Of a stretch of 47,888 nucleotides of DNA, positions 4,751 to 24,948 are shown in pieces. The notes below the pieces were generated by a model that saw only the letters and a program-made list of their open reading frames with translations, did not search any database and was not told where the DNA came from. The stretch spans positions 1-47,888 of the forward strand of contig NZ_ADGX01000064.1 in the NCBI RefSeq assembly GCF_000177675.1. The letters are read 5' to 3'. The translations under genes were made by a program, and so were the position numbers. Each line of letters opens with the position of its first letter. Position 1 is the first letter of the stretch. This stretch comes from Parafrankia sp. EUN1f (GTDB taxonomy: Bacteria > Actinomycetota > Actinomycetes > Frankiales > Frankiaceae).

Positions 4751-7700
4751 ATGCGTGACGGGCTGGGCCGGTGGGAGACGGTCACGCCGTCGCAGTTCCC
4801 TCATGAGCGGGAGGCACTGGAGCACGTCCGGCTCCTGCTGCCGGACGCCGAACCGTTCCGCGCCTGGTCGAACTTCACCTTCACCGCGACCACCGGGCAC
4901 ATCCGCGAGGTCGACCTGCTGGTCGTCGCCCGCGGTGGTGTCTACCTCATCGAGATCAAGAGCCTCGTCGGGCGGCTGACCGCGTCGGGTTCGACCTGGA
5001 CCCAGCACCGGGCGTCCGGGTCCACCCGCATCTTCGACAACCCGCTGCACCTGGCGAACCAGAAGTCCAGGGAGCTGCGCTCCCTGCTCCAGGTGGCCGC
5101 CCAGGCGAGCCGGACGAAGATTCCCTTCATTCAGCCGGCGGTCTTCCTGTCGAATCCGACGCTGCGGGTCGACCTTCCCGACCACCACCTCCCCTGGGTC
5201 TTCGGCCCCGAGCGGGCCGCCGCGGTCAACCCCGGTGGCGCTGGTGGGGCCGGTGGTGGCGCTGGTGGCGCGGGCATCGTCGGAAACGCCGGCGGTGCCG
5301 GCGGAGCGGGCGGGCGCGGCACGATGCTGCCGTCACTCTGGACCGGGCTGCTGGACGTCCCGCTGCGTGACGAGCGGCAGCGGATCACCCCGGCGCTGTC
5401 GAAGGAGCTGGCCAGGCTGCTGCCCGCGGTCGGCATCGCGCGCAGCCGGCGCCATCAGCAGGTGGGCTCGTGGCAGCTGGAGTTCCCGGCCTTCGACTCC
5501 GGCCTGACCTGGCAGGACCACCACGCTGCCCATGCCCAGGTCGCGTCGGAGCGGCGGCGGGTGCGGATCTACCTCGTCGAGCGGGCCGCCGGCGAGGCGG
5601 AGCGGGCGCGCCGGGAGGCGGTCGCCCGCCGCGAGTTCCTGGTGCTGAACGGGATCAGCCACCCCGGGATCGTCCAGGTCGACGGCCTGGAGAGCCATGA
5701 GGCCGGCCCGGCGCTGATCTTCCGGCACCGCCCGGACGAGATGCGCCTCGACCACTACCTCGACCAGTTCGGTGACAGCCTCGACGCCGGCACCCGGGTC
5801 TCCATGATCCGTGAGCTGGCGGAGACGGTCGCCTACGCGCACGGACGGCACCTCTACCACCGGGCGCTGGCCGCGCGCAGCGTCCTGGTGGTGCCGCGCG
5901 CCGGCCGGGGCTGGCTCGCGCCCAGGCTGATGATCAGCGACTGGCAGGCCGCGGCCCGCGACACCATCCTCGGCAGCGGCACGCCGGTGAACGGGCTGTC
6001 GACGACGTCACGCGCGCTGGCGGTGGAGCCCGCAGCCCAGCTGCTGCCGCATCTGGAGCTGGCCGCCGGCGGCTACCTGGCGCCCGAGATCGGCGCGCCG
6101 TATCCGGACCCGGTCGGCATGGACATCTTCGGCCTGGGCGCGCTGGCCTATCTGATCCTCACCGGCCAGGCGCCCGCGGACAGCCCGAACGCGCTGAAGA
6201 CACGGCTGGAGCAGTCCGGCGCCCTGTACCCGGCGGAGGTTGTCGACTCGCTGTCGGAGACGGCGAACGAGCTGGTGGCGGGGGCGACCCGCCCGCTGCC
6301 GGAGGAGCGTTTCGACACCGTCCGGGACCTGCTCGACTGGCTGCAGCTCATCGAGGAGGAGCTGACCCGGCCGGACGCCCCGGCTGCGACCCCCGGCTCG
6401 GCCCCGGCGGGCGGCGCCGGCGGCACGCCCGCGGATCCGTCCGCGCTGGATCCGAACGCCACACTCCAGTCCGTCACGTCCGTCTCCGTCGCGGGGCGGG
6501 CCGGCCAGGAGGCGGCCGAGGGGGAGTATGACGCGGATCCGCTGGAGGCACAGCGGGGCGACCTCGTCGGGGGCGAGTGGCGGATCAGGGAGCGGCTCGG
6601 CACCGGTTCGACGAGCCGTGCCTTCCTGGCGCACAACGAGAAGACCAACCGCGATGAGGTCCTCAAGATCGCGCTCTCCGATGAGCGGGCCCCGCGGCTG
6701 GGGCACGAGGCGGCGGTGTTGGGCCGCCTGAACGACTCGCGGGTGATCCGGCTGGCCCGGCCTGACACCCTGGTCGTCGGCGGGCGCACGGTGCTCGTCC
6801 TCGACCATGCCGGCGAGCAGACCGTCGCCCGCAAGCTGCGCGAGGGCCGGCTCTCCGTCGACGAGCTGGAGACCTACAGCGACTACCTGTTCGGCGCGGT
6901 CGACTACCTCGACGGCGAAGGCGTCGTCCACCGCGACCTCAAACCGGACAACATCGTCATCCGCCGGCGGCCGAACCGGACGTACCAGCTGGTCCTCATC
7001 GACTTCTCGCTGGCCAACCTCTCCGTGCACGAGACCGGCGCGGGAACGCCCCGCTACCTCGACCCGTTCGTCGGCGCCGGCACCCGTACCACCTACGACG
7101 ACCACGCCGAGCGCTACGCCCTGGCGGTCACCCTGCATGAGATGGCGTCGGGGGAGCTGCCGCTGTGGGGGGACGGATCCGCCGAGGCGCGGTTCACCTC
7201 CGGCCCTCCGAAGGTGGTCACCGAGGCGTTCGACCCGGCGATCCGCTCCGGGCTCACCGTGTTCTTCCTCCGCGCGCTCGACCGGGACGCCGCCCGCAGG
7301 TTCGCGTCGCTGAAGGACATGCGCGACGCCTGGCAGGCCGTCTTCCGCGCCGCCGACTCCACCCCGCCGGCCCCGAGCATCCACCCGGCGACGGCCGGCT
7401 CGGCGGCGGTGGCGCGGCCGCACGGCTCGGCCGGCGGCGCCGACGAGGCAGCCGCCGAGCGGGCCCGCGACCTTGCCGCCGCGGCGGCCACCGCCGACAC
7501 GCCGCTGGAGGCCGCGGGCCTGTCCCCGCGCGCCGTCTCGGCCGCGCACCGGCTCAACGCGACGACCGTCGCCGCGCTGCTGTCGCTCGGCTCGAAGGAG
7601 ATCATCGGCCTGCCGGGTACCGGCGCGAAGACCCGCCTGGAGCTGCAGTCCCGGATCCGGCAGTGGCGCCGTGCCCTCGCCGCCGCACGGCCCGCTGCGA

Positions 7701-9577
7701 TCGTTCCGCCCGCGGTCATGGCGACGCCGGCAGGGAAGCAGGACGACGGCGCGTCGGCGGCAGCGGCGCAGGACTACCCCCGCATGCCGGTCGAGGTCCT
7801 CGCCGACCGGCTGCTTCCCCGCGCTCCCCGGGCGGCGCCGGCCGATCGCAACGCCACCGAACGCGAGGCGACCCGGCTGCTGCTGGGACTGCCCGACGCT
7901 GACGGCACGCTGCCGGACCTGCCGCTGTGGGCCCCGCAGCAGCAGATCGCCGAACGGGTGGGGGTGACGGCGGGCCGGATCGCGCAGGTGCTGATCGCGC
8001 GGCGCAAGGCCTGGCACGCCGACCCGGCCGTGCGCTCGGTGCACGATGAGCTGATCGAGATCCTCGGCGACGCCGGCCGGGTGATGGGCTTCGACGAACT
8101 GGTCACCGCCGTTCTGGCCCGGCACGGCAGCGCCTGGCGCTCCCCGGCCGAGCGCCGGTCCTCGGGTGAGCGCCGGGCGTTCGCCGGCGCAGTGGTCCGC
8201 GCCGCGCTGGAGACCGTCGACCTCGACTCCGAGCCGCGGCTCGCGCGCCGCCGGTTCCACGACCGCATGCTGGTCGCGCTCGAAGCCGCCGAGGACGACG
8301 GCCCGCTCACCCCGGCCGCGCCGGCGTTGTTCGACTACGCCATCGCCCTGGGCAAGGCCGCGGACCGGCTCGCGCGCGCCGAGGAGCTGCCCGCCCCGGC
8401 GACCGTGCTGCGGGAGCTCGCCGGTGTCGCGGCCTCCGCCGGCGCCCCGGCCGCGGGTGCCGATGCCGGTTCCGAAAGTGTTGACAGCTCGGGAGGGTTG
8501 CCGGTGCTCGACCAGCGGCGCCTCGTCGGGCTTGCCGCCGCCGCCTCCCGCACCGCCGCCGCGAACGCCCGCCTGGAGATCTACCCGCGCGACCTGGACC
8601 TCGTCCGCGCTCTGCGTCTCGCCCAGGCCGGGGTGCAGCCCACCCGCCCCACCGCCGCCGTGGCACCGCCGGGCAGCGGCGACGAGCGGCCTGACCGGCT
8701 GTTGCTGGACGTCCCGACCATCCACGAGCGGGTACACAACCGCTTCCCGGGCCTGACCACCGACCTGCCGACCCATCCGGAGCTCGACCGCCCGCTGGTC
8801 GCCGCCGGCTTCGCCCTCGAATGGGACGCGGCCCGCGCCGGCTACGTGCCCCCGCACGGCCTGCTCTCCTCCGCCGGGTTCGGCTCGTGGGCCACTCCGG
8901 TCGCCCGCCAGCCCACCGGCCTGGGCGGCGGGTCAGCACGCGCGCTGCTCAGCGACCGCCCCGACGAGACGACGGCGGCCCTCGCCGAGCGGCGCCTCGA
9001 GACCGCCGCCGAAACCGGCGGCTTCCGGGCGCTGACCGTCCGGCGCAACCACTACCGGGCCGCCTGCGCGGAGCTGGCCAAACCACACCGGTTCGCCGCC
9101 GAACCGGTCGACGTCGCCGCCGTCTTCCTCGACGCCCTGCACGCCGAGGTCGACCCGCGGCCCAAGCCGACCTGGGCGACGATTCTGCGCGCCGACGCCG
9201 CCGAACCGGGCAGCCGGGCGGCCACCAAGCTCGCCGAGTACGTCCGAACAGCCTGGCAACGCGCTGCCGGCCAGCTCGCCGCCCACGTCGACGCCGCGCG
9301 GCCGGCACCGCTGCTGCTCCACGACGCCGGAGTGTTCGGGCACTACAACGGCCGCGGGCTGGACGTCCTGTTCGCGCTCGCCGACCGTGCCCGCGCCGGC
9401 GGGCGGCCCGTCTGGGTGCTGTGCCCGACGACCGAACCGACCCGGCCACCCCGGCTCGACGGCGCCCTCGTCCAGCTCGTCACCGAAAGCGAATGGGTGA
9501 CCCTGCCGGACGCCTGGATCGCCAACTGGCACCGCGCCAGTGCCGAGCAGACGCCCGCGGGCGGAAGGGCGTCCTGA
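4751..9577 (+). CDS. pglW: PglW: NERD-pseudokinase-kinase protein of type 2 BREX
   Basis: 1608 residues. Residues 14-130 form a NERD nuclease-like domain with EVDLLVV (D55) and IEIK (E68, K70). A Gly/Ala-rich insert at about 159-193 follows. Residues 250-533 are a kinase-like domain in which HRD is HRA (H370-R371-A372), the catalytic-loop Asn is Ser377 and DFG is DWQ (D397), so it is probably inactive. Residues 600-860 are a second kinase domain with Lys639, intact HRDLKPDN (D729) and D751 of DFS, so it is probably active. Residues 917-975 resemble the helix-hairpin-helix of the RNA polymerase alpha C-terminal domain. Residues 1057-1087 resemble a sigma-region-4-type helix-turn-helix. The ATG start fits the conserved N-terminus (RWETVTPSQFPHEREALE). 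First gene of the operon; pglX follows after 128 bases. Confidence 0.93.
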   Translation: MRDGLGRWETVTPSQFPHEREALEHVRLLLPDAEPFRAWSNFTFTATTGHIREVDLLVVARGGVYLIEIKSLVGRLTASGSTWTQHRASGSTRIFDNPLHLANQKSRELRSLLQVAAQASRTKIPFIQPAVFLSNPTLRVDLPDHHLPWVFGPERAAAVNPGGAGGAGGGAGGAGIVGNAGGAGGAGGRGTMLPSLWTGLLDVPLRDERQRITPALSKELARLLPAVGIARSRRHQQVGSWQLEFPAFDSGLTWQDHHAAHAQVASERRRVRIYLVERAAGEAERARREAVARREFLVLNGISHPGIVQVDGLESHEAGPALIFRHRPDEMRLDHYLDQFGDSLDAGTRVSMIRELAETVAYAHGRHLYHRALAARSVLVVPRAGRGWLAPRLMISDWQAAARDTILGSGTPVNGLSTTSRALAVEPAAQLLPHLELAAGGYLAPEIGAPYPDPVGMDIFGLGALAYLILTGQAPADSPNALKTRLEQSGALYPAEVVDSLSETANELVAGATRPLPEERFDTVRDLLDWLQLIEEELTRPDAPAATPGSAPAGGAGGTPADPSALDPNATLQSVTSVSVAGRAGQEAAEGEYDADPLEAQRGDLVGGEWRIRERLGTGSTSRAFLAHNEKTNRDEVLKIALSDERAPRLGHEAAVLGRLNDSRVIRLARPDTLVVGGRTVLVLDHAGEQTVARKLREGRLSVDELETYSDYLFGAVDYLDGEGVVHRDLKPDNIVIRRRPNRTYQLVLIDFSLANLSVHETGAGTPRYLDPFVGAGTRTTYDDHAERYALAVTLHEMASGELPLWGDGSAEARFTSGPPKVVTEAFDPAIRSGLTVFFLRALDRDAARRFASLKDMRDAWQAVFRAADSTPPAPSIHPATAGSAAVARPHGSAGGADEAAAERARDLAAAAATADTPLEAAGLSPRAVSAAHRLNATTVAALLSLGSKEIIGLPGTGAKTRLELQSRIRQWRRALAAARPAAIVPPAVMATPAGKQDDGASAAAAQDYPRMPVEVLADRLLPRAPRAAPADRNATEREATRLLLGLPDADGTLPDLPLWAPQQQIAERVGVTAGRIAQVLIARRKAWHADPAVRSVHDELIEILGDAGRVMGFDELVTAVLARHGSAWRSPAERRSSGERRAFAGAVVRAALETVDLDSEPRLARRRFHDRMLVALEAAEDDGPLTPAAPALFDYAIALGKAADRLARAEELPAPATVLRELAGVAASAGAPAAGADAGSESVDSSGGLPVLDQRRLVGLAAAASRTAAANARLEIYPRDLDLVRALRLAQAGVQPTRPTAAVAPPGSGDERPDRLLLDVPTIHERVHNRFPGLTTDLPTHPELDRPLVAAGFALEWDAARAGYVPPHGLLSSAGFGSWATPVARQPTGLGGGSARALLSDRPDETTAALAERRLETAAETGGFRALTVRRNHYRAACAELAKPHRFAAEPVDVAAVFLDALHAEVDPRPKPTWATILRADAAEPGSRAATKLAEYVRTAWQRAAGQLAAHVDAARPAPLLLHDAGVFGHYNGRGLDVLFALADRARAGGRPVWVLCPTTEPTRPPRLDGALVQLVTESEWVTLPDAWIANWHRASAEQTPAGGRAS

Positions 9578-9671
9578 CCGATGGCTGGACGCGCCTCGGG
9601 GCGCACGGCGCTTCGCCGTTGCCGGACGCCCGCCGGCCAGGGACCGCACCGGGCGCGAATGTTCGAAGAAC

Positions 9672-9699
9672 GGGTGGAACGGGTGGAACGGGTGGGGGG
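9672..9699 (+). repeat. GGGTGGAAC tandem repeat and G tract in the pglX leader
   Basis: Two exact 9-bp units (9672-9680, 9681-9689) and a third degenerate copy run into six consecutive G residues (9694-9699), which also form the Shine-Dalgarno sequence for the GTG at 9706. A change in length would alter ribosome-binding spacing rather than the reading frame. Confidence 0.7.
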
Positions 9700-9705
9700 A
9701 CGTCT

Positions 9706-12700
9706 GTGATCGACCGGGTGGCGCTGCTCAAGGACGCGCAGCGGCAGGTGAAGGCGCTGGAGAAGGACCTGCGCGCCCAGGTGGACGACGTCGCAGAGGT
9801 CGGGACGCGGCTGAAAGCCGAGTACGAACGGGCCTTCAAGGTGGAGCGCACGGCCGCGACCTGGTCGGCGTGGCTCGGCGAGCGGGTCACCCAGGCGGCC
9901 GCCGCGTGGATGCTCGGGACGGTGTTCGTCCGCTTCTGCGAGGACAACGGGCTGATCGGCGACCCGTACCTGGCCGGCCCGACGACCGCCCGCCTCACCC
10001 TCGCCGAGGAGCGCACCGAGGACTTCTACCGCCGCCACCCGGAAAGGACCGCCCGCGACTGGCTGCAGGCCGGCTTCGGCGAGATCGCGAAGGTGCCGGT
10101 CGGCGCCGGCCTGTTCGACAGGCAGCACAACGCCCTGTTCCAGATCCCGCTCTCCCACGACGCCGCCAAGGAACTGCTCACCTTCTGGCGCCGCCGCACC
10201 GAGGCCGGCACCCTCGTCCACGACTTCACCGACCCCGCGTGGGACACCCGCTTCCTCGGCGACCTCTACCAGGACCTCTCCGAGGACGTGCGCAAGAAGT
10301 ACGCGCTGCTGCAGACCCCGGAGTTCGTCGAGGAGTTCATCCTCGACCTGACGCTGACTCCGGCCATCGAGGAGTTCGGCTATGACGTCGTCAAGCTCAT
10401 CGACCCCACCTGCGGCTCCGGCCACTTCCTCCTCGGTGCCTTCCACCGCCTCCTCGCCGAATGGGAGAACAACGCCCCCGACCGCGACGTCTTCGAACGC
10501 GTCCGCCTCGCCCTGGACGCGATCCACGGCGTCGACATCAACCCGTACGCGGTGGCGATTACCAGATTCAGGCTGGTGGTTGAGGTGTTGCGTGCGGCTG
10601 GTATCCGCACACTTGCGGCCGCAGTCGGATATCAATTGGCTCTGCATGTAGCTGTTGGTGACTCTCTGATCAAGGGGCGCCAACTCAAAATTTTCGACGA
10701 CGCGCGTGATAATCTGGCGGAATTCTCCTACGTCACGGAGGATGTGCGCGAGCATTCGGACCTACTAAAAGAGGATCGTTATCATGTCGTTGTAGGAAAT
10801 CCGCCATATATTACGGTTAAAGATGCGAGCCTCAACAAGATGTACCGAAAGCTCTACGGTGCCTGTGGAGGCTCCTATGCGCTGTCGGTCCCCTTCATGC
10901 AGCGGTTCTTCGAACTGGCGAAGGAGGCCGACAAAGAGGGGCGAGGTGCGGGTAGGGTAGGTCAGATCACGGCCAATTCATTCATGAAGCGTGAGTTCGG
11001 TAAAAAACTGATCCAAGATTTTCTCTCTTCCACTGCCGAGCTCACTCATGTCATTGACACTTCCGGTGCCTACATTCCTGGCCACGGTACACCGACCGTA
11101 ATAGTCCTGGCGCGACGGAATCGATGGAATCGCTACCGCCCTGTTCGTGCTGTACTCGGCATCCGAGGGGAACCTTCCGCGCCCGTGGATCCGAGAAGAG
11201 GTCGTGTATGGCAGGCAATCGTCGAGGGTCTGTCGTCCCCGGGAAATGGCGGAGAGTGGGTGAGCGTGGTTGACTGGCCGCGTAGTCGCTTCGACTCTTT
11301 TCCGTGGGGCCTTGGGGGTGGCGGAGCGGCGGATCTTAGTACCTTTCTTGTGAATGGGAAAAAGAAGCTTACCAGCGAAATTCGGGTGATTGGTCGAACG
11401 GCCCATTCTGGCGCTGACGAAGCCTATTACGGCCCTGTCGGGGTGTGGGCGAGATTCTCTATTCCGGACAACTACTCTGTCGCTCTCGTTGAGGGTGAGG
11501 TTATACGTGACTGGGTTTTGGCTCCCGGCAAGGAGGCGATCTTCCCGTATGGGGGAGACTTGAAAGCAAGCCTGGATCCAGGCTCCACTGGGCGCATGCT
11601 TTGGTTAAATCGTACGATCTTGGTGCGAAGGAAGGAGCTCGGCGGCACGCACGAGGAAATTGGCCTTACTTGGTACGAGTGGAGTCGCTGGCATCCTGAA
11701 CGTTTCGCGGTTCCCCTTGGAATCGCTTTTCCGTTCGTGTCTACGCATACCAGTTTTGTGCTTGACCGCGGCGGAAATGTTTTCAAGCAGACGGCTCCTG
11801 TAATCAAGCTTCCGCCGGATGCGTCCGAGGATGATCATCTGAGGCTGTTGGGGGTTTTGAACAGCTCGGCGGCGTGCTTCTGGCTCAAGCAGGTCTGCTA
11901 CCCCAAGGGAGGGGATCCGGTCGGTCAGGACGGCGCTCGTGTCAGCGTCGAAGCGTGGTCGGATCGATACGAGTTCACCGGGACCAAACTGCAGGAGTTT
12001 CCGTTGCCGGCGGAGTATCCGTTGGAGCTGGCGCGGGAGCTGGATGGGTTGGCGCAGCGGCTGACGGCGGTGAGCCCGACCTCGGTGGCGGCGGGCGGGG
12101 CGCCCTCGCGGGTCCGGTTGGCTGAGGCACGGGGCGAGTGGGGGTCCACACGGGCGCGGATGATCGCGTTGCAGGAGGAGTTGGACTGGCAGGTGTATCG
12201 GCAGTACGGGTTGCTTGCCGATGAGCTGATCCTGCCGATGACTGAGGTGCCTGAGATCAGGTTGGGGGAGCGGGCGTTCGAGATCGTGTTGGCGCGCAAG
12301 ATTGCGGCAGGCGATGAGACATCCGAGTGGTTTTCCCGGCACGGGTCGACGCCGATCACCGAGTTGCCGGCGCACTGGTCGGATGAGTACCGGGCGTTGG
12401 TGGAGAAGCGGATCGCGGTTATCGAGAGCGATCGGAACATCGGGCTGATCGAGCGGCCTGAGTACAAGCGGCGGTGGGCTACCGAGGGCTGGGACAAGAT
12501 GCAGGACGCCGCCCTGCGTGACTGGCTGCTCGACCGGCTGGAGACGCGTGAGCTGTGGTTCGCCGAAGTCGACGGCATGGTGCAGCCGCGGGCGTGGACC
12601 ACCGGGCGGCTCGCCGACGAGTTGGCCGCCGACGCGGATTTCGTGGCAGTCGCCGAGATCTACCGGCCGGGGGAGGACCTGACGAAGGTCGTCGCGGCCC

Positions 12701-13296
12701 TCGTGGAGAACGAGCATGTGCCGTTCCTGGCCGCGTTGCGTTACAAGGATTCCGGGCTGGTGAAGCGGGCCGACTGGGAGTCGGTGTGGGATCAGCAGCG
12801 CGCCGAGGACGCCGCCCCGGACGAAGAAGCCGCGAAGCGGATCCGTGACAGGATTCCCGTGCCGCCGAAGTACGCCCAGGCCGATTTCCGCAAGCCCAGC
12901 TACTGGCGGGCCCGCGGCAAGCTGGACGTCCCGAAGGAGCGGTTCATCTCCTACCCGCATGCCGGGCCGGAGAACGATCCGACGCTGCTGGTCGGCTGGG
13001 CTGGGTGGGATCACCGGGAGCAGGCGCAGGCGCTGGCGACGCTGGTCGTCGAGCGTCAGGACAACGACGGCTGGGGTGCGGAGAAGCTCGCCCCGCTGCT
13101 GGCCGGGCTGCGTGAGGTGATGCCGTGGGTCCGGCAGTGGCACAACGACATCGACCCGCTCTACGACGGCTCGCCCGCCGAGGTGTACGACGCGTTCCTC
13201 GCCGATTCGATGGGGCAGCACGCGCTGACCGCCGACGCCCTCACCGCTTGGCGCCCACCGGCGGCCGGTCGCGGCGGACGACGGGCGGCGAAGTGA
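9706..13296 (+). CDS. pglX: PglX: BREX adenine-specific DNA methyltransferase
   Basis: 1196 residues from the GTG at 9706, chosen because it is preceded by GGGGGGA and gives the conserved start (V/M)[21 protein letters not shown]. The longer open frame upstream overlaps pglW and is not needed. The methyltransferase core has motif [12 protein letters not shown] (D233) for S-adenosylmethionine and motif IV NPPY (N365), which marks N6-adenine methylation. The following roughly 350 residues should hold target recognition. In type 2 BREX PglX marks host DNA and is needed for phage restriction. Codon use changes abruptly: up to about 10555 it is C-ending and GC-rich, from 10556 to about 11990 clearly AT-richer, from 11990 to 12480 G/T-ending, then normal again. 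This suggests internal recombination. Confidence 0.93.
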
Positions 13297-13375
13297 CCAG
13301 GCCCGCGCGCGGCTACCCGGCCCCGGATCCGCTCCCGCAGCACCCGTACGACCTGACCCCGACCGGAGGTGCTGT

Positions 13376-16300: not shown

Positions 16301-17518
16301 GGCACGGCTGGTGGGGGCGGTGCGGAGCCGGGTGAGCTACTGGTAGCCGACCTGCTGGGCTGGATCGACGTGCCAAAGGTGCGGGGCCTGGCGGACGACG
16401 TCGCCAACCTGATCGTCGCCGCGTTCGCGGAGCAGACCGACCGGGCCTGGTATCGGCACCGCGGCCACCTGCCGACCCCACCCGAGCTGACCGCCATCAC
16501 GAAGGACATGGCGCTGCGCGAACAGCCTCTGCCGGACGCCGCCGACTGGGCCACCGCCGTCGACCGCGCCCAGGCGATCTTCGGGGTGCTGCCGCCCGCG
16601 CTGCTGCGTGGCCGACTGCTGCGCGGCTTCGTCGACGAACTGGTCGGGAAGACGCACAGCCGCCGGGCGGCCTGCCAGGAACTGGTCAGTGTCCTGGAGG
16701 CCCGTGCGACGGAGCTCGGCCTCGACCCACGCACCGGCGCCGCCCTGGCCAGCACCGCCCCGACCGCCGCGAGTGGGTCCGGCAGCACGGAGAGCCTTGG
16801 GGACCCGGAGGCCGACGGCTCCGCGGCGCAGGGAAGGCTGCGGACCGCCCGGGCGGCCCGCGACCTGGTGGTCGCGCTGGACGAGACCAGGGTGGCAACG
16901 GAGATCGTCCGCCGGCTCGCCCGCGCCGACCTCGCCGGCCCCGCCCGCCGGCTCGCGGTGAGCATCAGCCGCGCCACGGAGGTCGCGACCGCCGTCCGGG
17001 CGGCACCCTGGGATGTCTTCGTGGTCATCGCGGGGCTCGGCGAGCCGTATCGCTCCGAGGCCGACGAGATTCTCGACGCGCTGCGGGCCGCGGCTGCTGC
17101 CGACGAGCTGACATCACCACTCGCGACGGCGTTGGGAAATGCCCGATCCGAGGCCACCGCCCTGCTGCGTCGCGCGACCGCGGTGCCGGTAGCCCGAACC
17201 CCGCCGGACCCGCGTCCAGCGATCATCCAGCCGCCAGCCGAGGTCCCGGGCACGCCCAGCATCGACACCGACCGCATCGGGGTGACCGGCGGCGGGACCG
17301 GCACCGGCGGCGGGACCGGCGGCGGCAGTGGTGAGGGCGGAGGCGTCGGCGGCGAGACGGGGACCGTCGACACGGACCGGGTTCCGGTCGGCGATACCGG
17401 TGGCGTGCGGACGTGGCGAGTCAGGCTCGGCGGGCTGGAGAACGCCTTGGCCGAGTTGCGCGCCCATGCCGGTGACCGGCCCGGCGAGGTCGAGATCGTC
17501 TGGCGGCCGCAGCCGTGA
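13376..17518 (+). CDS. pglY: PglY: large P-loop ATPase of type 2 BREX
   Basis: 1380 residues. A Walker A motif GSFGSGKSHF (K85) and Walker B LFLDEL (D296, E297) show an ATPase of the PglY/BrxC group. The order of genes and the N-terminal sequence (REVIDIPERTSDSDFVLKL) fit PglY. The function of the ATPase within BREX is not established; it is the counterpart of BrxC in type 1 systems. The C-terminus has a Gly/Thr-rich linker (about residues 1300-1325) before a short conserved tail ending EVEIVWRPQP. The ATG is preceded by GGAGG at 13365-13369, an optimal spacing. The gap to pglX is 79 bases, and the stop overlaps the pglZ start. Confidence 0.92.
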   Translation: MTRPSPSSQPQPLLREVIDIPERTSDSDFVLKLVEGVTDTATLSSYVVTDRLVGNFDEALGLIAQAVSTGSSKGVYLHGSFGSGKSHFMAVLHAMLRGEPAARTLDDRLTDVLGKHDAALAGKRFLLVPFHLLTSKSIEQRVLGGYADHLRVLHPQAPIPAVHRAGALLDEARSVRAKVGDATFLAELNRAGSGGPGGAGADADRATGAGADEDEDPWGDAGWTAAELDAVLAPGAPTDSEDRRLLISDLLSTWFANTFRDLREDAEGFVSLDAGLTEIARHAKDLGYDAVILFLDELILWLANNMGDQAFVSREVQKVTNFVEGGLGARPIPVVSFIARQRDLRELVGDSIAGDVRLSFLDVLTLADGRFDKIILEDRNLPLIANRRLLKPRDADAGAAIARAFDTTAKVRAEVWDTMLGGSDQLGADRDAFRLSYPFSPAFMDTLVHVSSALQRNRTALKLMRQLLVDHRDDLRLGQVVPLGDLWDVITRGADTPFTDVLKAEFDAAQKLYTRKLRPYLLDAEGLDEDTLARVRRAQATTAGGATTAGGAAVDPALATKVRRFTADDRLAKTLLLSALAPSVPALRNLTPRRLSALNHGSITSPIPGGEAGLVGKKVERWAGQFGEVKYVPVDGGDPGVGLELVDVEVDSILNSAVAYDNGGNRRTLVKRLLVEELGVTVTGDVYGDRLDLVWKGSKRSAEVIFGSIRGADLRDDQFAPVDPDAWRLVIDYPFDDAGDGPVYARARVERMRGAGAGHRTVCWIPADLTATRLADLGMLVRLDHLLTGSGHRFDSHAQHLSADDRQRARGVLKSRYDALLTKTRTVLRSAYGLTSKDEQDVTADFTDHLRALWPGLNPTLPLGASFRDALRRLVGDLLADQFPGHPDLDPDQTGTAVKPAELKIVLGYVTKAAEADGGSVEVARADRIPMRRIAPALGLGVMHEVRFELGREWVDHFTRQAAQAAAADSAGVAGGTAGGGGAEPGELLVADLLGWIDVPKVRGLADDVANLIVAAFAEQTDRAWYRHRGHLPTPPELTAITKDMALREQPLPDAADWATAVDRAQAIFGVLPPALLRGRLLRGFVDELVGKTHSRRAACQELVSVLEARATELGLDPRTGAALASTAPTAASGSGSTESLGDPEADGSAAQGRLRTARAARDLVVALDETRVATEIVRRLARADLAGPARRLAVSISRATEVATAVRAAPWDVFVVIAGLGEPYRSEADEILDALRAAAAADELTSPLATALGNARSEATALLRRATAVPVARTPPDPRPAIIQPPAEVPGTPSIDTDRIGVTGGGTGTGGGTGGGSGEGGGVGGETGTVDTDRVPVGDTGGVRTWRVRLGGLENALAELRAHAGDRPGEVEIVWRPQP

Positions 17519-20500
17519 CCGTTCTGCCCTCCTCGTCATCCGCCGGGCACGCCGCCCCGAGTGGCATGTCCGGTGCCGGTGCCCCGCGGGTCACCCCGGC
17601 CATCGTGCTGGGCCGGGTCGCCCGGCTGCGGCGCGGCGGGCACAGCGATCACCGTGACCAGCCGCGGGTGCTGCTCGTCCGGGCCCGGCCCGAGTGGTCC
17701 GGACCCGCCGACCTCGACCTCGGCGGCCGACCGGTCCGGGTGGTGGCGTGCGTGTCGCCCCTCGCGGTGCTCGAGGAGGTCGTCCGCTGGACGCACGCCC
17801 CCGTCGAGGACGGCTGGCTGGTGCTGCTCACCGACGCCGACGAGGAGTCGCTGGGAGACTCGCTGCTCGCGCAGGTCCACCGGCAGCGGGTCGACGTCAT
17901 CGAGCCGTGGCTCGCCGTCCTGGAGGACTTCGGGGCCACCCAGGCCGACCCGCGGCTGCGGGCCCCCGAGTACCGCTGGGTCGCTCCGGCGCTGCTGGAG
18001 GCCCGGCCCGCGGCCGGCTGGCCGCGCCGGCCCGGTGGTCTGCTCGGCCGGGAGGACGCGCTGGCCGAGCTGGCCGCCGCCCGACTCGGCCTCACCGAGC
18101 TGGGCCTGGGCGCCGCCGACCTGGACATCGCCACCCTGCTGCGCTGGACGACGACGCCCGGCGCGACCGCGGCGCTCGGCCGGCTCGGTGACGACGAACG
18201 CGCCGGCGTCACCAGATATCTGGTGGAACGCACCGGCCGCGCCGGGCAGGCGCTGTTCACGCTGACAGCTGCCGGCAACGGGGACCGGGCTCTTGCCCTC
18301 GGCCTGGTCTGCGACTGCCTGTGGCCCCGTCCGCAGCCAGCGCAACGCGGTTCCGCGGAACCGCCCGCCGGGACGTCGGGCCCAGGTGCCGGACCTGGCT
18401 CGGGTGCGGGTGCGGGTGCGGTCGAGCGCGTGGTTGAGCGGGCCCGGGTTCGGGTGGAGCGCTACTTCGGAGATGTGCTTCTCGACGACGTGACCATGCG
18501 GGCGTTCGCCGACGCCGTCCACGAGGTGGTGACGACGGCGCTGCTCACCGCCCGCCCGGGCGCCGGCAGCCTCGGCGTCGGCGCGGCCGGTGGGAGGGGT
18601 GCCACCGAGGACGCCTCGGTGACGCTGCACCCGGACGACGGCGTGCCGGCGCTGCTCGACACGGCCGACCGGCTGCTCGGTGACCTGGATGCCCGCGCCG
18701 CGGGCGCTGCCAGCGACATCCTGCGGTCCGGGTTCGACCATCGGCTGGGCATGGTCGCCGGCGCCGTCCGGGACTTTCTCGCCGCGGCGGAGTCCGGCGT
18801 CCACCGTTCGCTGCTCGCGAGGGCGGCCCGCGACGTCATGACCGCCGTCGGGTCGTTGCGCGGACATCTGCTGGCTGGCCTGAATCGTCCCGAGGTGGAA
18901 CGGGCGGCGATGGCCGCCCGGCTCGTCGGCTGGCTCGCCACCCAGCCCACCGGCTCGCTCACCACCACCGGCGCGCCTGCCACCGGCGCGACTGCCGGGC
19001 CGACGTCGCTGGCCGCGGCCCTCGACGCGCACCTCGACGACGGTGCCTGGGCCGACATCGCGCTCAGCCATCTCGCCGCCGGCACGCCCGCACCCGTGGT
19101 CGGCTCGGCGTACGGTGATCTCTACCTGGTGGTGGCACGCCGCCGCCGCGCCCTCGACGCGGCTTTCGCGCGGCTGCTCGCCCAGTGGACCACCACCGGC
19201 CGGCCGGCACCGGCGGTGCAGCCGGTGCCGGCGGGGCCGGCGGCGCCGCTGTGTGTCGAGGACGTGCTCGACCGGGTGGTCAGGCCGGTCGTGACCGCCC
19301 GCGGCGGCCGCGCGCTTCTGCTCGTGCTCGACGGGATGAGCGCCGCCGTCGCCGCCCAGCTCGCCGCCGAGCTGCGCAGGGAGCGTTGGGAGGAATGCGA
19401 CCCGCTGGGCCTGCCGGAAGCCGATCCCGCCGGCTCGGCGCGCCGGCGGGCAGCCCTCGCCGTGCTCCCGACCGTCACCACCACCTCGCGGACGTCGCTG
19501 CTCGCCGGCCGGCTGGTCACCGGGGACAAGACGACGGAGAAGACCGAGTTCGAGAACCATCCACGCTGGGGCCGCCGGCCCACCAGTCTGTTTCACCACG
19601 CCGACCTGGCCGGCGCGCCCGGCGTCGCTCTCGACGGGGCGCTCACCGACGCACTGACCTCGGACATCCCGCTCGTCGCGGTGGTCATCAACACGATCGA
19701 CGACATGCTCGACCGGGGCCGGCCGCACGACGACGGCGGTTGGAGCCTGGCGGACGTCGGCCGGCTGCGCGCGGTGCTCGGCTACGCCCGCACCGCCGGG
19801 CGGGCCGTCATCCTGACCAGCGACCACGGCCATGTCGTCGACCACCGTGCCGAACGGCTGACCCCCGCCGCTGACGCCGAGATCCTGTCGGCCCGCCACC
19901 GTGCCTGCGCCCCGGGTGAAGGCGAAGGCGTCGCGGCCGAGGTGCTGCTCGCCGGGCCACGGGTGCTCGCACCCGGTGGGCGGATCGTCGCGCTGTGGGA
20001 TCCCGACACGCACTACCTGGGCCGCCACGGCGGATATCACGGTGGGGCGTCGCCCGCGGAGGTGACCGTGCCCGTACTGGCGTTCCTGCCATTCCGCCTC
20101 TCCGCGGCGTCGACGAACCGTCACCTGCCGCCCGGCTGGCGCCCGCTGCCCGACCAGCGTCCCCGCTGGTGGTCCTTGGAGACGACGGACCTGCTCGGCG
20201 GCCTGGACAGCCTCGCCGGTGGCGAGACGGTGCTGCTCGGGCGGCCCGCCTCGTCCGCTGCCCTTGCTGCCTCCGCTGCTTCTGCCGCCACGGCGGCCGA
20301 CGGTGGCGCGGAGGCAACGGTCGCCCTGCCCCGCAAACGGCGCCGGCCGGCGGAGGAACAGACCGGCCCGGCGTTGTTCGACCTGCCTGCGGCGGCGACC
20401 GGGGGACCCTCGGCCCGCCCTTCGGCTGATCCGGCAGCTGGCGGCGCTCCGGAGCCAGGCGCTCGGATGCCCGGCGGCGCGGTGGCCGGTGCTTCGGTGC

Positions 20501-20892
20501 CCGGCGGTGCGGCGGCTGACGAGGCGGTCGCCCTCGGAGCAACGGGCAGGCCTGGGGCGGGTGGCGGGCCCGCGGACCCGATCGACGTTCTCGTCGCCGG
20601 GCTGCTCGCGTCCGAGCTGTTCCGCTCCCAGCTCGACGGACTGGCCCGCAAGGTGCCGGTGGAGAAGGTGGAGGCCGCGGTGCGGGCGCTGCTCGGCGCG
20701 AACGGCACCCTGGCGACGTCCGTCGTCGCCGCACGGGCCGGTGAGCGCCCCGTGCGGGCCGGCGGGTTCGCCGTCACCCTGCGGCGCCTGTTCAACATCG
20801 ACAACTATCCGGTGCTGGAGCCGATCGACGACGGCCACACCCTGCGCCTCAACGTCGACCTGCTGCGCGCCCAGTTCGGGCTGGCGGTATGA
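17515..20892 (+). CDS. pglZ: PglZ: alkaline-phosphatase-fold BREX core protein
   Basis: 1125 residues. The start is a GTG overlapping the pglY stop as GTGA, implying translational coupling. The PglZ domain occupies about residues 590-860: LVLDGMS (D606), VTTTSRTSLL for the nucleophile region, TSDHGHVVDH (D770, H771) and GGYHGGASPAEV (H842), all metal-site positions of the alkaline phosphatase superfamily. An N-terminal region of about 580 residues precedes it. An Ala/Gly/Pro-rich linker (about 960-1015) joins it to a conserved C-terminal helical domain. PglZ is the signature protein of all BREX types. In Streptomyces coelicolor it has been proposed to restrain PglX toxicity. The activity of this copy cannot be inferred beyond its intact site residues. 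Confidence 0.93.
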   Translation: MTVLPSSSSAGHAAPSGMSGAGAPRVTPAIVLGRVARLRRGGHSDHRDQPRVLLVRARPEWSGPADLDLGGRPVRVVACVSPLAVLEEVVRWTHAPVEDGWLVLLTDADEESLGDSLLAQVHRQRVDVIEPWLAVLEDFGATQADPRLRAPEYRWVAPALLEARPAAGWPRRPGGLLGREDALAELAAARLGLTELGLGAADLDIATLLRWTTTPGATAALGRLGDDERAGVTRYLVERTGRAGQALFTLTAAGNGDRALALGLVCDCLWPRPQPAQRGSAEPPAGTSGPGAGPGSGAGAGAVERVVERARVRVERYFGDVLLDDVTMRAFADAVHEVVTTALLTARPGAGSLGVGAAGGRGATEDASVTLHPDDGVPALLDTADRLLGDLDARAAGAASDILRSGFDHRLGMVAGAVRDFLAAAESGVHRSLLARAARDVMTAVGSLRGHLLAGLNRPEVERAAMAARLVGWLATQPTGSLTTTGAPATGATAGPTSLAAALDAHLDDGAWADIALSHLAAGTPAPVVGSAYGDLYLVVARRRRALDAAFARLLAQWTTTGRPAPAVQPVPAGPAAPLCVEDVLDRVVRPVVTARGGRALLLVLDGMSAAVAAQLAAELRRERWEECDPLGLPEADPAGSARRRAALAVLPTVTTTSRTSLLAGRLVTGDKTTEKTEFENHPRWGRRPTSLFHHADLAGAPGVALDGALTDALTSDIPLVAVVINTIDDMLDRGRPHDDGGWSLADVGRLRAVLGYARTAGRAVILTSDHGHVVDHRAERLTPAADAEILSARHRACAPGEGEGVAAEVLLAGPRVLAPGGRIVALWDPDTHYLGRHGGYHGGASPAEVTVPVLAFLPFRLSAASTNRHLPPGWRPLPDQRPRWWSLETTDLLGGLDSLAGGETVLLGRPASSAALAASAASAATAADGGAEATVALPRKRRRPAEEQTGPALFDLPAAATGGPSARPSADPAAGGAPEPGARMPGGAVAGASVPGGAAADEAVALGATGRPGAGGGPADPIDVLVAGLLASELFRSQLDGLARKVPVEKVEAAVRALLGANGTLATSVVAARAGERPVRAGGFAVTLRRLFNIDNYPVLEPIDDGHTLRLNVDLLRAQFGLAV

Positions 20893-22280
20893 GCGCCGAT
20901 GTCAGCGCCGCGCGGCGGCGGGATGTGCTCGACGCGCTGCGGCGAGGGGCGGTACCGGCGGCCGGTCTGGACCTGCTCGCGGTCGGGCTGGACCGGTTCG
21001 AGCGCGCCGCCGCCGACGACCTGGCCGCCGTCGCCGCCGGCGGGTCGGTGTTCAAGGCGATCCGCGGCGAATACGGCTCCGGGAAGACGTTCTTCACCCG
21101 CTGGCTCGCCGAACGGGCGAAGAAGGCGGGGCTGGCCACGGCCGAGGTGCAGATCTCGGAGAACGAGACACCACTGCACCGGCTGGAGACCGTCTACCGC
21201 CGGCTCACCGAGCGCCTGACCACCGCGACGTTCCCGCCGAGCGCCCTGCGCCAGGTCGTCGACGGCTGGTTCTACGCCCTCGAGGAGGACGTCCTCGCCG
21301 CCGACGAGGCGACCGGCGACGACCCGGTGGCCTTCGACGCGGCCGTCGGCGAGCTGGTCGACCGGCGGCTCGCCGACGTCGGCAGGACGGCCCCCGCGTT
21401 CGCGGCGGCGCTTCGGGGCTACCGGTCGGCGCTGACCGGCGGCGACGAGGCGTCCGCGGCGGCGGTGCTCGCCTGGCTCGGCGGGCAGCCGCACGTCGCC
21501 GCGAGCGCGCGCCGTGCCGCCGGGGTCCGCGGCGACCTGGACCACTTCGGGGCGCTCGGCTTCCTGCAGGGTCTGCTGGTGGTGCTGCGTGACAGTGGCT
21601 TCCGTGGGCTGCTGCTCGTCCTCGACGAGGTCGAGACCCTGCAGCGGGTCCGCTCCGACGCCCGCGACAAGGCCCTGAACGCGCTGCGCCAGCTCATCGA
21701 CGAGGTCCACGGCGGCCGGTTCCCCGGGCTGTTCCTCGTCATCACCGGGACGCCGGCGTTCTACGAGGGCGCCCAGGGCGTGCCGCGGCTCGCGCCCCTC
21801 GCGCAGCGGCTCGCCACCGACTTCACCGCCAACCCGAGGTTCGACAACCCGCGGGCCGTTCAGCTGCGGCTGGCCGGGTTCACCGAGGCGTCGCTCGTCG
21901 AGCTCGGCGGGCGGGTCCGTGACCTGTACGTCGCCGGTTCGGCGGGCGATGCGGCGGGGCGGGAACGCATCGAGCGGCTTGTCGACGACGGCTACCTCGG
22001 CGAGCTGGCGGCGGCGGTCGCCGGGCGGCTCGGCGGCAAGGTCGGCGTCGCGCCGCGGCTGTTCCTCAAGAAGCTCGTCGGGGATGTCCTCGACCGGGTC
22101 GACCAGTTCGACGACTTCGACCCCCGCCGCGACTACCCGCTGATGATCGCCGCGGCGGAGCTGACCGACCTGGAACGCAACGCCGCCCGCGCCGACGACA
22201 TCGACCTCGAACTGGACGACGACCTCGAACTGGACGACGACCTCGAACTGGACGACGACCTCGACCTGGACCAGCCCTGA
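20889..22280 (+). CDS. brxD: BrxD: P-loop ATPase of type 2 BREX
   Basis: 463 residues. The ATG overlaps the pglZ stop as ATGA. The N-terminus (ARRRDVLDALRRGAVPAAGLDLLAVGLDR) followed by the Walker A motif GEYGSGKTFF (K66) and Walker B LLLVLDEVETL (D246, E247) fits the BrxD (DUF2791) ATPases found in type 2 and 3 BREX next to an Lhr-like helicase. The last 30 residues are an acidic tail of repeated DLELDD units encoded by 18-bp tandem repeats. The stop overlaps the likely start of brxHI. A joint role with BrxHI in DNA remodelling is the usual inference; it has not been shown for this copy. Confidence 0.92.
   Translation: MSADVSAARRRDVLDALRRGAVPAAGLDLLAVGLDRFERAAADDLAAVAAGGSVFKAIRGEYGSGKTFFTRWLAERAKKAGLATAEVQISENETPLHRLETVYRRLTERLTTATFPPSALRQVVDGWFYALEEDVLAADEATGDDPVAFDAAVGELVDRRLADVGRTAPAFAAALRGYRSALTGGDEASAAAVLAWLGGQPHVAASARRAAGVRGDLDHFGALGFLQGLLVVLRDSGFRGLLLVLDEVETLQRVRSDARDKALNALRQLIDEVHGGRFPGLFLVITGTPAFYEGAQGVPRLAPLAQRLATDFTANPRFDNPRAVQLRLAGFTEASLVELGGRVRDLYVAGSAGDAAGRERIERLVDDGYLGELAAAVAGRLGGKVGVAPRLFLKKLVGDVLDRVDQFDDFDPRRDYPLMIAAAELTDLERNAARADDIDLELDDDLELDDDLELDDDLDLDQP
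22203..22271 (+). repeat. 18-bp tandem repeat encoding the acidic BrxD tail
   Basis: Three exact copies of GACCTCGAACTGGACGAC (22203-22220, 22221-22238, 22239-22256) and a shortened fourth. Because the unit is a multiple of three, gain or loss of copies would keep the frame and only change tail length. Confidence 0.9.
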
Positions 22281-24481
22281 CCGCCGGACCCTCGGTCGGC
22301 GCCGGCGGCACCGGCGGCGGCGCCGACCCGGCGGACCTGCTGCATCCGGTGGTGACGCACCACATCGTGAACACGCTGCAGTGGCCGGGGCTGCGCCCGT
22401 TGCAGGAGGCGGCTGTCGCGCCGCTGCTCGCCGGATCGGACGCGCTGCTGCTCGCGCCGACCGCCGGCGGGAAGACCGAGGCCGCCACCTTCCCGATCCT
22501 GTCGCGGATGGCCGCGGAGAACTGGCAGGGCACATCCGTCCTGTACCTGTGCCCGCTCAAGGCGCTGCTGAACAACCTCACCCCACGGCTGGAGACCTAC
22601 ACCGGCTGGCTCGGCCGCCGGGCCGCCGTCTGGCACGGGGATGTGGCCGAGAGCCGGCGCGGGCGGATCCGCCGCGAACGGCCCGACGTCCTGCTCACCA
22701 CACCCGAGTCGCTGGAGGCGATGCTCGTCAGCGTCCGCACCGACCATCACGGGTTCTTCGCCGGTGTGCGGGCCGTGATCGTCGACGAGGTGCACGCCTT
22801 CGCGGGCGACGACCGTGGCTGGCACCTGCTCGCCGTCCTGGAGCGACTGCGCCGGCTCATCGCCGCAGAGCTGCAGGTCATCGGGCTGTCGGCGACGGTC
22901 GGGAACCCGGCCGAGCTGCTGCGCTGGCTGCAGGGATCGGGCGCCGGCCGCCGCACCGCCCAGGTCGTCGCACCGGACGTCCCCCTCCAGCGGACCCACG
23001 AACCGACACCACCGACGTCCCACAGCGCGGTGCCGGCGACACCGCCGCCGGGTGAGATCGAGCTGGACTACGTGGGCTCGGTGACGAACGCCGCGAAGGT
23101 GCTGGCCGCCCTGCACCGCGGCGAGAAACGGCTGGTGTTCTGCGACTCGAGGAAGACCGTCGAGGAGCTCGGCCAGGCGCTGCGGGCGCTCGGCGTGGAC
23201 ACGTTCCTCTCGCACGCCTCCCTGTCCGCGGCCGAGCGGCGCCGCTCCGAGGAGGCCTTCGCGCAGGCCCGCGACTGCGTCATCGTGGCCACCAGCACGC
23301 TGGAGCTGGGCATCGACGTCGGCGACCTGGACCGGGTGATCCAGATCAACGCCCCGGCGACCGTCGCGTCCTTCCTGCAGCGCCTCGGCCGCACCGGCCG
23401 GCGGCCGGGCACCGTGCGCAACTGCCTGTTCCTCACCCTGTACGAGAGCGCGCTCGTGCAGGCCGCCGGGCTGCTGGCGCTGTGGGGCCGCGGCTGGGTC
23501 GAACCGGTCGTCGCCCCGCCCGAGCCACGGCACATCGTCGCCCAGCAACTGCTCGCCTACTGTCTGCAGGAGAACCGGATCGGCGACCGGACCTGGGTCG
23601 ACGAGTGGAACGGCCTCGCGCCGTTCGACCGCTCGGCGGAACCGATCGTGCGCCACCTCGTCCGCGCCGGCTACCTGGACTCCGACGGCGGCATGCTGTT
23701 CGTCGGGCCCGAGGCCGAGCGCCGCTTCGGCCACCGGCACTTCTCCGAGCTGACCGCCGTGTTCACCGCCGCGCCGCAGTTCACCGTCGTGCACGGCCGC
23801 GACGAGATCGGCCGCACCGACCCGGTCCTGCTCACCGACCCGGTCGAGGGGCCGCGGCTGCTGCTGCTCGCCGGCCGCAGCTGGCGGGTCACCCACATCG
23901 ACTGGAAACGTCGCCGCTGCTTCGTCGAACCCGCCGACGGCGGTGGCCGGGCCCGCTGGCTCACCGCCGCCGACGGCGGGATGTCCTTCGCACTGACCAG
24001 AGCGATGCGGGACGTCCTGCTCGGCGAGGACCCGCCGGTTCCCCTCACCCGCCGGGCGACGGAACGGCTCGCCGCCATCCGGGAGAACCACCTCGACGTC
24101 GTCCATCCGGGCGGCACGGTGATCGCCCGGACGGAGGATCACACCGACGTCCGCTGGTGGACCTGGGCCGGTGAACGCGCCAACCGCACCCTCGCCGCGA
24201 GCCTCGGCGACCTTGCCGACCCGCTGCAGTCCCCGACGGCCGCCTACCTGCGCCTGCGCACCGATCTGACCCCGGCCTTCTGGAAGACCGCGACCGCGGA
24301 CCTGGCCGCCCGCCTGTGCCTGCCGCACGTCACCGAGGACGCCCTCGCGGGCCTGAAGTTCAACACCGCGCTGCCCCCACGGCTGGCCGAGGTCACCCTC
24401 GCCACCCGCCTCGCCGACCTGCCCGCCGCGGCGGCGGTCGTGCGCGAGCCCGTCCGCTTCACCCACCGAATCCCCGCGTAG
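22277..24481 (+). CDS. brxHI: BrxHI: Lhr-like superfamily 2 helicase
   Basis: A superfamily 2 helicase with LLAPTAGGKTEA (Walker A), VIVDEVHAF (DEVH box), ATSTLELGID and QRLGRTGR (motifs V and VI). The C-terminal part has the extra domains of Lhr-like proteins. Conserved sequence (DLLHPVVTHHIVNTLQWPGLRPLQ) begins before the first GTG (22349). The only in-frame candidate upstream is a CTG at 22277, which overlaps the brxD stop as CTGA and gives 734 residues starting MTAGPSV. The same 4-base overlap joins pglY/pglZ and pglZ/brxD, so I prefer it. If the GTG is used the protein has 710 residues. Last gene of the BREX operon. Confidence 0.9.
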   Translation: MTAGPSVGAGGTGGGADPADLLHPVVTHHIVNTLQWPGLRPLQEAAVAPLLAGSDALLLAPTAGGKTEAATFPILSRMAAENWQGTSVLYLCPLKALLNNLTPRLETYTGWLGRRAAVWHGDVAESRRGRIRRERPDVLLTTPESLEAMLVSVRTDHHGFFAGVRAVIVDEVHAFAGDDRGWHLLAVLERLRRLIAAELQVIGLSATVGNPAELLRWLQGSGAGRRTAQVVAPDVPLQRTHEPTPPTSHSAVPATPPPGEIELDYVGSVTNAAKVLAALHRGEKRLVFCDSRKTVEELGQALRALGVDTFLSHASLSAAERRRSEEAFAQARDCVIVATSTLELGIDVGDLDRVIQINAPATVASFLQRLGRTGRRPGTVRNCLFLTLYESALVQAAGLLALWGRGWVEPVVAPPEPRHIVAQQLLAYCLQENRIGDRTWVDEWNGLAPFDRSAEPIVRHLVRAGYLDSDGGMLFVGPEAERRFGHRHFSELTAVFTAAPQFTVVHGRDEIGRTDPVLLTDPVEGPRLLLLAGRSWRVTHIDWKRRRCFVEPADGGGRARWLTAADGGMSFALTRAMRDVLLGEDPPVPLTRRATERLAAIRENHLDVVHPGGTVIARTEDHTDVRWWTWAGERANRTLAASLGDLADPLQSPTAAYLRLRTDLTPAFWKTATADLAARLCLPHVTEDALAGLKFNTALPPRLAEVTLATRLADLPAAAAVVREPVRFTHRIPA

Positions 24482-24570: not shown

Positions 24571-24936
24571 GTGTGGGAGATCTTGCTGCACCCGGCGGTC
24601 GAGGACTGGTTTCTTGATCTGTGCCGCACGGACCCGACGAGCGCGGACCTGGTCTCCGAGGCCATCGACGTGCTCGCCGAAAACGGGCCAGCTCTGGGTC
24701 GGCCGCTCGTGGACCGCCTGAAGGGCAGCATCTATCACCATATGAAGGAACTCCGGCCTGGCTCGGCCGGCTCCACCGAGATCCGTATGATCTTCGTTTT
24801 CGATCCCCGCCGCGAGGCGATCTTCCTGGTCGCAGGCGACAAAGCCGGGGCTTGGCGGGAGTGGTACCGGACCGCTATCCCCCTCGCGGACGAACGGTTC
24901 ACCGACCATCTGACCCGCCTGAAGGAAGAGGACTGA
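24571..24936 (+). CDS. higB: HigB/Gp49-like (DUF891) RelE-superfamily toxin
   Basis: 121 residues starting at a GTG seven bases after the -10. The pattern WEILLHPAVEDWFLDL, DRLKGSIYHHMKELRPG, EIRMIFVFDPRREAIFLVAGDKAG and WREWYRTAIPLADERF-DHL is that of phage Gp49-like HigB toxins, which are ribosome-dependent mRNA interferases of the RelE fold. The basic and aromatic residues usual at such active sites (R, K, W, Y in the C-terminal half) are present. It is followed after 12 bases by an XRE antitoxin in the HigB-HigA order, toxin first. It begins 89 bases after brxHI and has its own promoter, so it is adjacent to rather than part of the BREX operon. Confidence 0.85.
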   Translation: MWEILLHPAVEDWFLDLCRTDPTSADLVSEAIDVLAENGPALGRPLVDRLKGSIYHHMKELRPGSAGSTEIRMIFVFDPRREAIFLVAGDKAGAWREWYRTAIPLADERFTDHLTRLKEED

Positions 24937-24948
24937 GGGGGACCAGCC

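Follow-up and report, generated by a model that had tools for sequence, protein, structure and literature searches.

The stretch of DNA analysed here (the window, 47,888 bp) is an entire contig (G000:C333) of the 9.35-Mb genome of Parafrankia sp. EUN1f. Between 4751 and 24481 it carries six open reading frames (ORFs) that an initial annotation had proposed to be the six genes of a type 2 bacteriophage exclusion (BREX) system, also named phage growth limitation (Pgl), and whose specificity gene, pglX, is the main subject here. All six are present and open, and they form a single cluster on the + strand. The first, pglW (4751–9577), codes for 1608 aa with a NERD nuclease-like domain, a degenerate kinase, an intact-looking Ser/Thr kinase and a C-terminal half, and is followed by pglX (9706–13296; 1196 aa, GTG start), an N6-adenine methyltransferase and specificity protein, and by pglY (13376–17518; 1380 aa), a BrxC-type ATPase. 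The alkaline-phosphatase-type protein PglZ (17515–20892; 1125 aa, GTG start), the ATPase BrxD (20889–22280) and the helicase BrxHI (22277–24481, starting at either CTG 22277 or GTG 22349) complete the set. The gaps between pglW and pglX and between pglX and pglY are 128 bp and 79 bp, and the four-base overlaps proposed for pglY/pglZ (GTGA) and pglZ/brxD (ATGA) are real. Taken mechanically, the longest ORF for pglX would start at 8821, within pglW; its profile match starts only at 9721, and the start position at 9706 is matched in three of the loci compared (denoted here by L numbers, genomes by G numbers), with GTG in L032, ATG in L039 and TTG in L007. Directly 5' of the pglX start region, a 9-bp unit, GAACGGGTG, occurs in 3.1 copies (9668–9695); the five relatives compared show no such repetition.

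In this family, PglX methylates an adenine within the short DNA motif that it recognises, PglZ restrains PglX and may be the nuclease effector, PglW senses and signals, and PglY, BrxD and BrxHI are ATP-driven partners. Each of the six proteins is matched by BREX profiles from NCBIfam, PADLOC or both, in agreement with the type 2 identity first proposed. NCBIfam cut-offs are passed by PglW (NF033442; 1613 bits, cut-off 990), PglX (NF033451; 1790 bits, cut-off 400) and BrxD (NF033438; 641 bits, cut-off 350), and PglW is also matched by PADLOC (1568 bits) and by the Pfam NERD and Pkinase families. The product of 17515–20892, on whose recognition as PglZ the initial annotation had staked its reading, matches BREX_PglZ_2 (NF033446) at 911.8 bits with a cut-off of 200, and lies below the Pfam cut-off (22.9 vs 25). 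PADLOC backs PglY (BrxC-PglY, 1468 bits) and BrxHI (1089 bits); no BREX model is among the 25 NCBIfam matches listed for BrxHI. The PglX, PglY and PglZ core of the type 2 subfamilies is thus accompanied by PglW, BrxD and BrxHI, and none of the best matches of the six proteins is a type 1 BREX model in PADLOC or NCBIfam, no search having been aimed at brxL, brxA or brxB. Profile searches of the genome give one full PglX and one PglZ_2.

Catalytic motifs, located by pattern searches, were found in all of the proteins in which they had been called intact. PglX contains DPTCGSG and NPPY (residues 365–368; 10798–10809 on the + strand), PglY contains GSFGSGKS and FLDE, BrxD GEYGSGKT and VLDE, and BrxHI APTAGGKT, DEVH, SAT and QRLGRTGR. 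The second PglW kinase has VLK, HRDLKPDN and DFS, while the first is degenerate (HRALAA, SDW) and the NERD domain retains its D and EIK. The PglZ motifs LVLDG (D606) and DHGH (D770) are spaced by 164 residues; the essential pair in Streptomyces coelicolor PglZ is D535/D694, 159 residues apart, according to the available text of PMC4365076.

The PglX family cut-off is exceeded in 22 of 97 genomes (this one included), in 50 of 393 across the class, and in 18 of the 35 Frankiaceae genomes (f1, G000–G034; hand count), so that the gene set is ordinary for the group. Judged from its sequence, the locus is a complete type 2 BREX (Pgl) system, and it is apparently functional.

The four-base overlap proposed for brxD and brxHI (CTGA, 22277–22280) stands only if a CTG start is used. 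We compared this join by eye in the first 12 relatives with at least 60% identity; it is visible in ten of them and not in L044 or L050. Whereas a standard start is absent at the join in the window, all ten relatives have one: GTG in seven (L032, L039, L042, L054, L058, L062 and L063), TTG in two (L033 and L037) and ATG in L041. The locus might accordingly be impaired, in that brxHI has CTG at 22277 and the next standard start in its frame is only the GTG at 22349. However, CTG can serve as a bacterial start codon, a start at GTG 22349 would leave the helicase motifs of BrxHI in place (counted from 22277, its Walker A starts at residue 60), and all six frames are open; we regard impairment as improbable. 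The acidic C-terminal tail of BrxD contains an 18-bp tandem repeat of 3.9 copies (22202–22271), which sits just before the position at which brxHI lacks a standard start.

The composition of pglX is not uniform, which the initial annotation did not mention. GC content in 300-base intervals is 0.52–0.59 over 10500–11999, compared with 0.62–0.79 elsewhere in 8800–13599. A two-change-point fit to GC content at third codon positions (GC3) sets codons 285–711 (10558–11838, + strand) at 0.57, between flanks at 0.96 and 0.88, with a likelihood gain of 102 as against 3.6–7.9 in ten shuffles. This segment is a putative imported module, comprising the NPPY-containing half of the methyltransferase and most of the target-recognition domain (TRD). 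Nine relatives have low-GC3 stretches of their own (0.54–0.70), with left limits at 250–399 and right limits at 618–811 in window numbering.

To compare histories along the gene we used 80 PglX loci found by patterns inside the module, which biases that set to high identity there, and 24 found with the family model (its best-scoring rows rather than a random draw; 18 of them are L131–L148). Because the module-based search favours high module identity, the test was repeated with these 24. From 118 loci, 18 were dropped (17 partial and one with an internal stop) and two duplicates were merged, leaving 99 distinct PglX including that of the window. The 18 Frankiaceae genomes divide into ten that form a chassis group, fixed from whole-protein similarity before any tree was made, two with divergent PglX that were placed among the others (L043 and L048), five partial loci that were dropped (L045, L046, L047, L049 and L050) and one in which the gene is split over two contigs and was not used (G020).

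Among the ten (45 pairs) mean identity is 0.86 in the flanks and 0.39 over codons 521–740 (11266–11925, + strand), and between the ten and the other 89 (890 pairs) it is 0.52 and 0.37; across all 4851 pairs the Spearman correlation is 0.62 between N- and C-flank identities and 0.22 between flank and TRD. Divided more finely, mean identity within the ten is 0.875 (codons 1–280), 0.739 (281–420), 0.647 (421–520), 0.390 (521–740) and 0.845 (761–1160), compared with 0.534, 0.503, 0.594, 0.369 and 0.535 against the 24 family-model loci. Much family signal thus remains in 281–420, little in 421–520 and almost none in 521–740, and the loss in the recognition region is repeated with the family-model set. 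At the nucleotide level, identity of the window pglX to the nine relatives is 0.84–0.89 over codons 1–280, 0.43–0.54 over 521–711 and 0.80–0.87 over 761–1160.

Trees were built from 60 rows: the ten chassis PglX, 40 others nearest to the window TRD and ten random; flank trees were run in 'quick' mode and TRD trees in 'careful' mode, and approximately unbiased (AU) tests were applied to the latter. In both the N-flank and C-flank trees the ten lie on one side of a branch, with support of 99 and 100 in the Shimodaira–Hasegawa-like approximate likelihood ratio test (SH-aLRT). The TRD tree (521–740) has 8 changes, and a single clade of the ten is rejected (p-AU 5.7e-5). The repeat with the 24 family-model rows also gives 8 changes, of which starred branches force 5, with p-AU 2.8e-5; 176 of 500 shuffles are as low in changes. 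In the 60-row tree the TRD of L032 lies beside Candidatus Accumulibacter (Pseudomonadota; 99/89), that of L041 beside a member of the Pseudonocardiaceae (99/96) and that of L035, more weakly, beside Streptomyces (93/76).

An alternative explanation is that the recognition region was never exchanged and has evolved in place so fast that the family signal is erased. TRDs are known to diverge quickly, as stated in the portion of PMC12839542 available, and the TRD branches are long in both trees. However, one-clade trees are rejected in both row sets, and GC3 drops sharply, for which selection on amino acids gives no need; moreover, other variable stretches of the system, PglZ 241–600 among them, retain their family signal (0.58–0.77 within, 0.22–0.32 outside). 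We therefore find this explanation unlikely, and regard exchange of a specificity module in pglX as well supported by the comparisons.

We also scanned all six genes in windows of 50–60 residues, using seven Frankiaceae and outsiders from the module-based set, which biases the pglX part. Identity within the family exceeds identity to outsiders by at least 0.14 in all but the following: pglX 361–420 (+0.09), 421–720 (-0.07 to +0.05), where the family signal is lost, and 721–780 (+0.12); pglY 1261–1320 (+0.06) and pglZ 961–1020 (+0.02), both of which look like linkers rich in Gly, Ala and Pro; and brxHI 301–350 (+0.08, from one outsider). Outsider values were lacking for brxHI 1–200 and for the final 13 residues of BrxD. 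These values bear on the possibility that another lineage recently supplied the entire operon rather than a module alone. Defence loci move often, and gene content around pglX differs among the relatives, but pglW, pglY, pglZ, brxD and both flanks of pglX resemble their Frankiaceae counterparts far more than those of outsiders (for brxHI, one outsider has enough cover), and the same-genus genome G004 retains a stump of pglW at the same site. Recent acquisition of the whole operon is, in our judgement, very improbable.

In G004 both sides of the site are retained (93–94% identity) with pglW codons 45–113 (95%) between them; the counterparts of window positions 4046–4882, and of 5089 to the last codons of a HigA-like gene that follows the operon, are missing, and there is no PglX match in that genome. 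The likeliest history suggested by this alignment is that BREX was at the site before G000 and G004 split, and that G004 lost it together with a HigBA-like pair. Insertion of the island in G000 was considered and dropped, as the 'empty site' of G004 holds pglW codons 45–113.

A whole-protein model of PglX (46 rows) was made, with a predicted local distance difference test score (pLDDT) of 82.9 and a predicted template modelling score of 0.66; domain limits were taken from it. Scores fall below 50 at residues 539–545, 552–562, 597–605, 671–686, 690–697, 733–760 and 1188–1196. The first Foldseek matches are Escherichia coli BrxX and Salmonella PglX. With VIA-align, the CamA methyltransferase scores highest (Z 30.8) and E. 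coli BrxX (9ewz_C) gives Z 25.7 and a root-mean-square deviation of 10.1 over 713 residues; the M.TaqI core aligns to residues 202–537, and BrxX 1–820 to residues 2–755. As the BrxX TRD is placed at 651–837 in the text of PMC11842806 available, these alignments indicate that codons 521–740 of pglX are mostly TRD. In the model, which is weak in parts here, codons 285–711 add to the TRD the half of the catalytic domain that carries NPPY (365). Conserved blocks at 355–430 and 690–735 share exact nucleotide runs with the other 89 PglX of median length 11 and 12 (maximum 17 and 29), compared with a median of 8 (maximum 13) at 560–640; with protein conservation not controlled for, these runs are only suggestive of anchors for homologous exchange.

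We conclude that the locus is very probably a complete and apparently functional type 2 BREX system in which PglX consists of an inherited chassis and an exchanged specificity module. On the sequence evidence PglX is a chimera: its N-terminal portion, up to about codon 284, and its C-terminal portion, from about 761, descend with the Frankiaceae, and the middle module (the NPPY half of the methyltransferase and the TRD) has other ancestry and lower GC, probably through recombination from a wider pool. Since one polypeptide sets specificity, exchange of the module should retarget modification and defence together and leave the other genes untouched.

Several observations weigh against this conclusion or limit it. 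PglY is below its NCBIfam cut-off (NF047891; 1445 bits vs 1700), and BrxHI might be expressed less from a CTG start. Low GC3 in this part of pglX is common to the relatives and so marks the pool, not a recent event in this genome. The TRD that best matches that of the window, from Actinacidiphila oryziradicis (L054), does so at 61% over 213 columns, so no recent donor is found among the PglX compared, and the exchange is old or its donor unsampled. The window TRD pairs with that of L007 (Frankia sp. AgKG'84/4; 99/89, and 100/99 in the 24-row repeat), this pair joining L054 by a weak step (87/71), and L033 pairs with L036 (100/99); these pairs are within the family, and some imports must then predate splits. 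Two of the 24 loci, L043 and L048, are themselves Frankiaceae with divergent PglX. Single placements are weakened by long TRD branches (L039, 2.38 in the 60-row tree; L048, L041 and L039 in the 24-row tree), and a long-branch warning applies to L104 and L075 in the N-flank tree.

More speculatively, type 2 BREX may in general be a fixed chassis whose recognition modules are swapped repeatedly from a pool spanning bacterial phyla, swaps being tolerated because host DNA is not constitutively methylated, as in the Pgl model; a new specificity would then not expose the chromosome to attack. We hold this to be possible but doubtful. The available portion of PMC12839542 states that the Pgl model lacks direct evidence and argues for a BREX-like mechanism, so that marking of host DNA by type 2 systems is experimentally unsettled. 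The gene set itself is one more member of a common family, and the ten PglX with near-same chassis and dissimilar recognition regions constitute a natural experiment: their methylomes would give a table of TRDs and motifs for type 2 BREX, and would test marking of the own genome (the BREX model) against none (the Pgl model). Variability of pglX as such is already known: the part of PMC9009780 seen describes two type 1 systems whose pglX genes diverge internally, as fits variable TRDs. Among the listings and passages surveyed, none described the exchange of a module in type 2 PglX.

The nearest relative compared by gene order is the type 2 BREX of Parafrankia soli (L037, identical in PglX to L052; G003), which has the same six genes in the same order with best-segment identities of 72–89% per protein, although its recognition region is only 47% identical over 521–740 and its GC3 breaks lie at 365–780 (window numbering). 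In the HsdS proteins of type I restriction systems specificity likewise changes by swapping recognition domains, whereas the module here is internal to the methyltransferase and takes in a portion of its catalytic domain. Type 1 BREX systems, to our knowledge, are without PglW, BrxD and BrxHI. Their PglX/BrxX proteins (E. coli and Salmonella; PDB 9ewz, 8q56 and 8c45) have the same predicted fold as the window PglX and, in the accessible parts of PMC11341690 and PMC11842806, a TRD inside the methyltransferase protein, but the sequence match to the window PglX is 21.8 bits; a search of PDB sequences gave four matches, the best at 23.9 bits.

The S. coelicolor A3(2) system resembles the window in its protein families, the PglX NPPY motif, the two PglZ aspartates and the second PglW kinase (PMC4365076, available text). 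There, the same text states, PglX is a methyltransferase whose toxicity is suppressed by PglZ, and the kinase activity of PglW and ATPase activity of PglY are needed. S. coelicolor PglX is reported to lack the N- and C-terminal subdomains that flank BrxX (PMC12707154, in part), whereas residues 2 to 1167 of the window PglX model can be aligned with BrxX. Its pglX also has a phase-variation tract of eight G residues (PMC4365076). The window has no G or C run of seven or more, and we rejected phase variation by a G tract; such runs occur in 7 of 101 pglX, all of length seven.

A second pglX acting as a silent cassette store was likewise rejected: the other match in the genome, on contig C346 (L164, 7474–7680), is a relic of about 70 codons, of which 165 bp are 83% identical to window 9817–9981, and no match to the other five BREX proteins lies within the 16 kb examined around it. 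The HigBA-like pair begins 89 bp after brxHI (24571–25278, + strand) and is not part of BREX; it comprises a Gp49/HigB-like gene (24571–24936; Pfam Gp49, 62.2 bits) and a helix-turn-helix gene (24949–25278; HTH_3, 45.6 bits, scanned as 25054–25278). A role as BREX accessory was dismissed, as no match (E up to 1e-3) lies downstream of brxHI in the seven other Frankiaceae stretches. The HigB-like protein is also similar to the C-terminal portion of the NsnC models in PADLOC (28.2 bits).

Relatives carry further genes beside pglX. In L036, of the same genus, the interval between pglX and pglY (10102–14086) codes for a type IV restriction enzyme (496 bits with PADLOC), for a protein resembling ImmA/RmrA (67.9 bits) and for a PIN-like protein that was recognised by eye and has no PADLOC match; the window has no extra gene there. 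A TIR-like protein lies beside pglX in L033 (2654–5839; by eye, no PADLOC match), and a similar P-loop ATPase is seen by eye beside pglX in L034 (4004–5617; no PADLOC match), L035 (4513–6096) and L036 (4756–6294).

No tRNA was found in the window and no Rfam family reached its gathering score; a sub-threshold match near 4317 was taken as chance. Upstream of pglW, positions 3970–4200 hold one copy of a dispersed, palindrome-containing repeat about 220 bp long, which has many copies in G004 and inside which homology to G004 breaks. There are at least 47 matches in this genome including this one (40 scored of 188 candidates), seven of them opposite-strand palindromes, and the other 39 copies are 72–88% identical. 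By eye, a 12-copy consensus seems bounded by inverted ends, similar to those of a miniature inverted-repeat transposable element.

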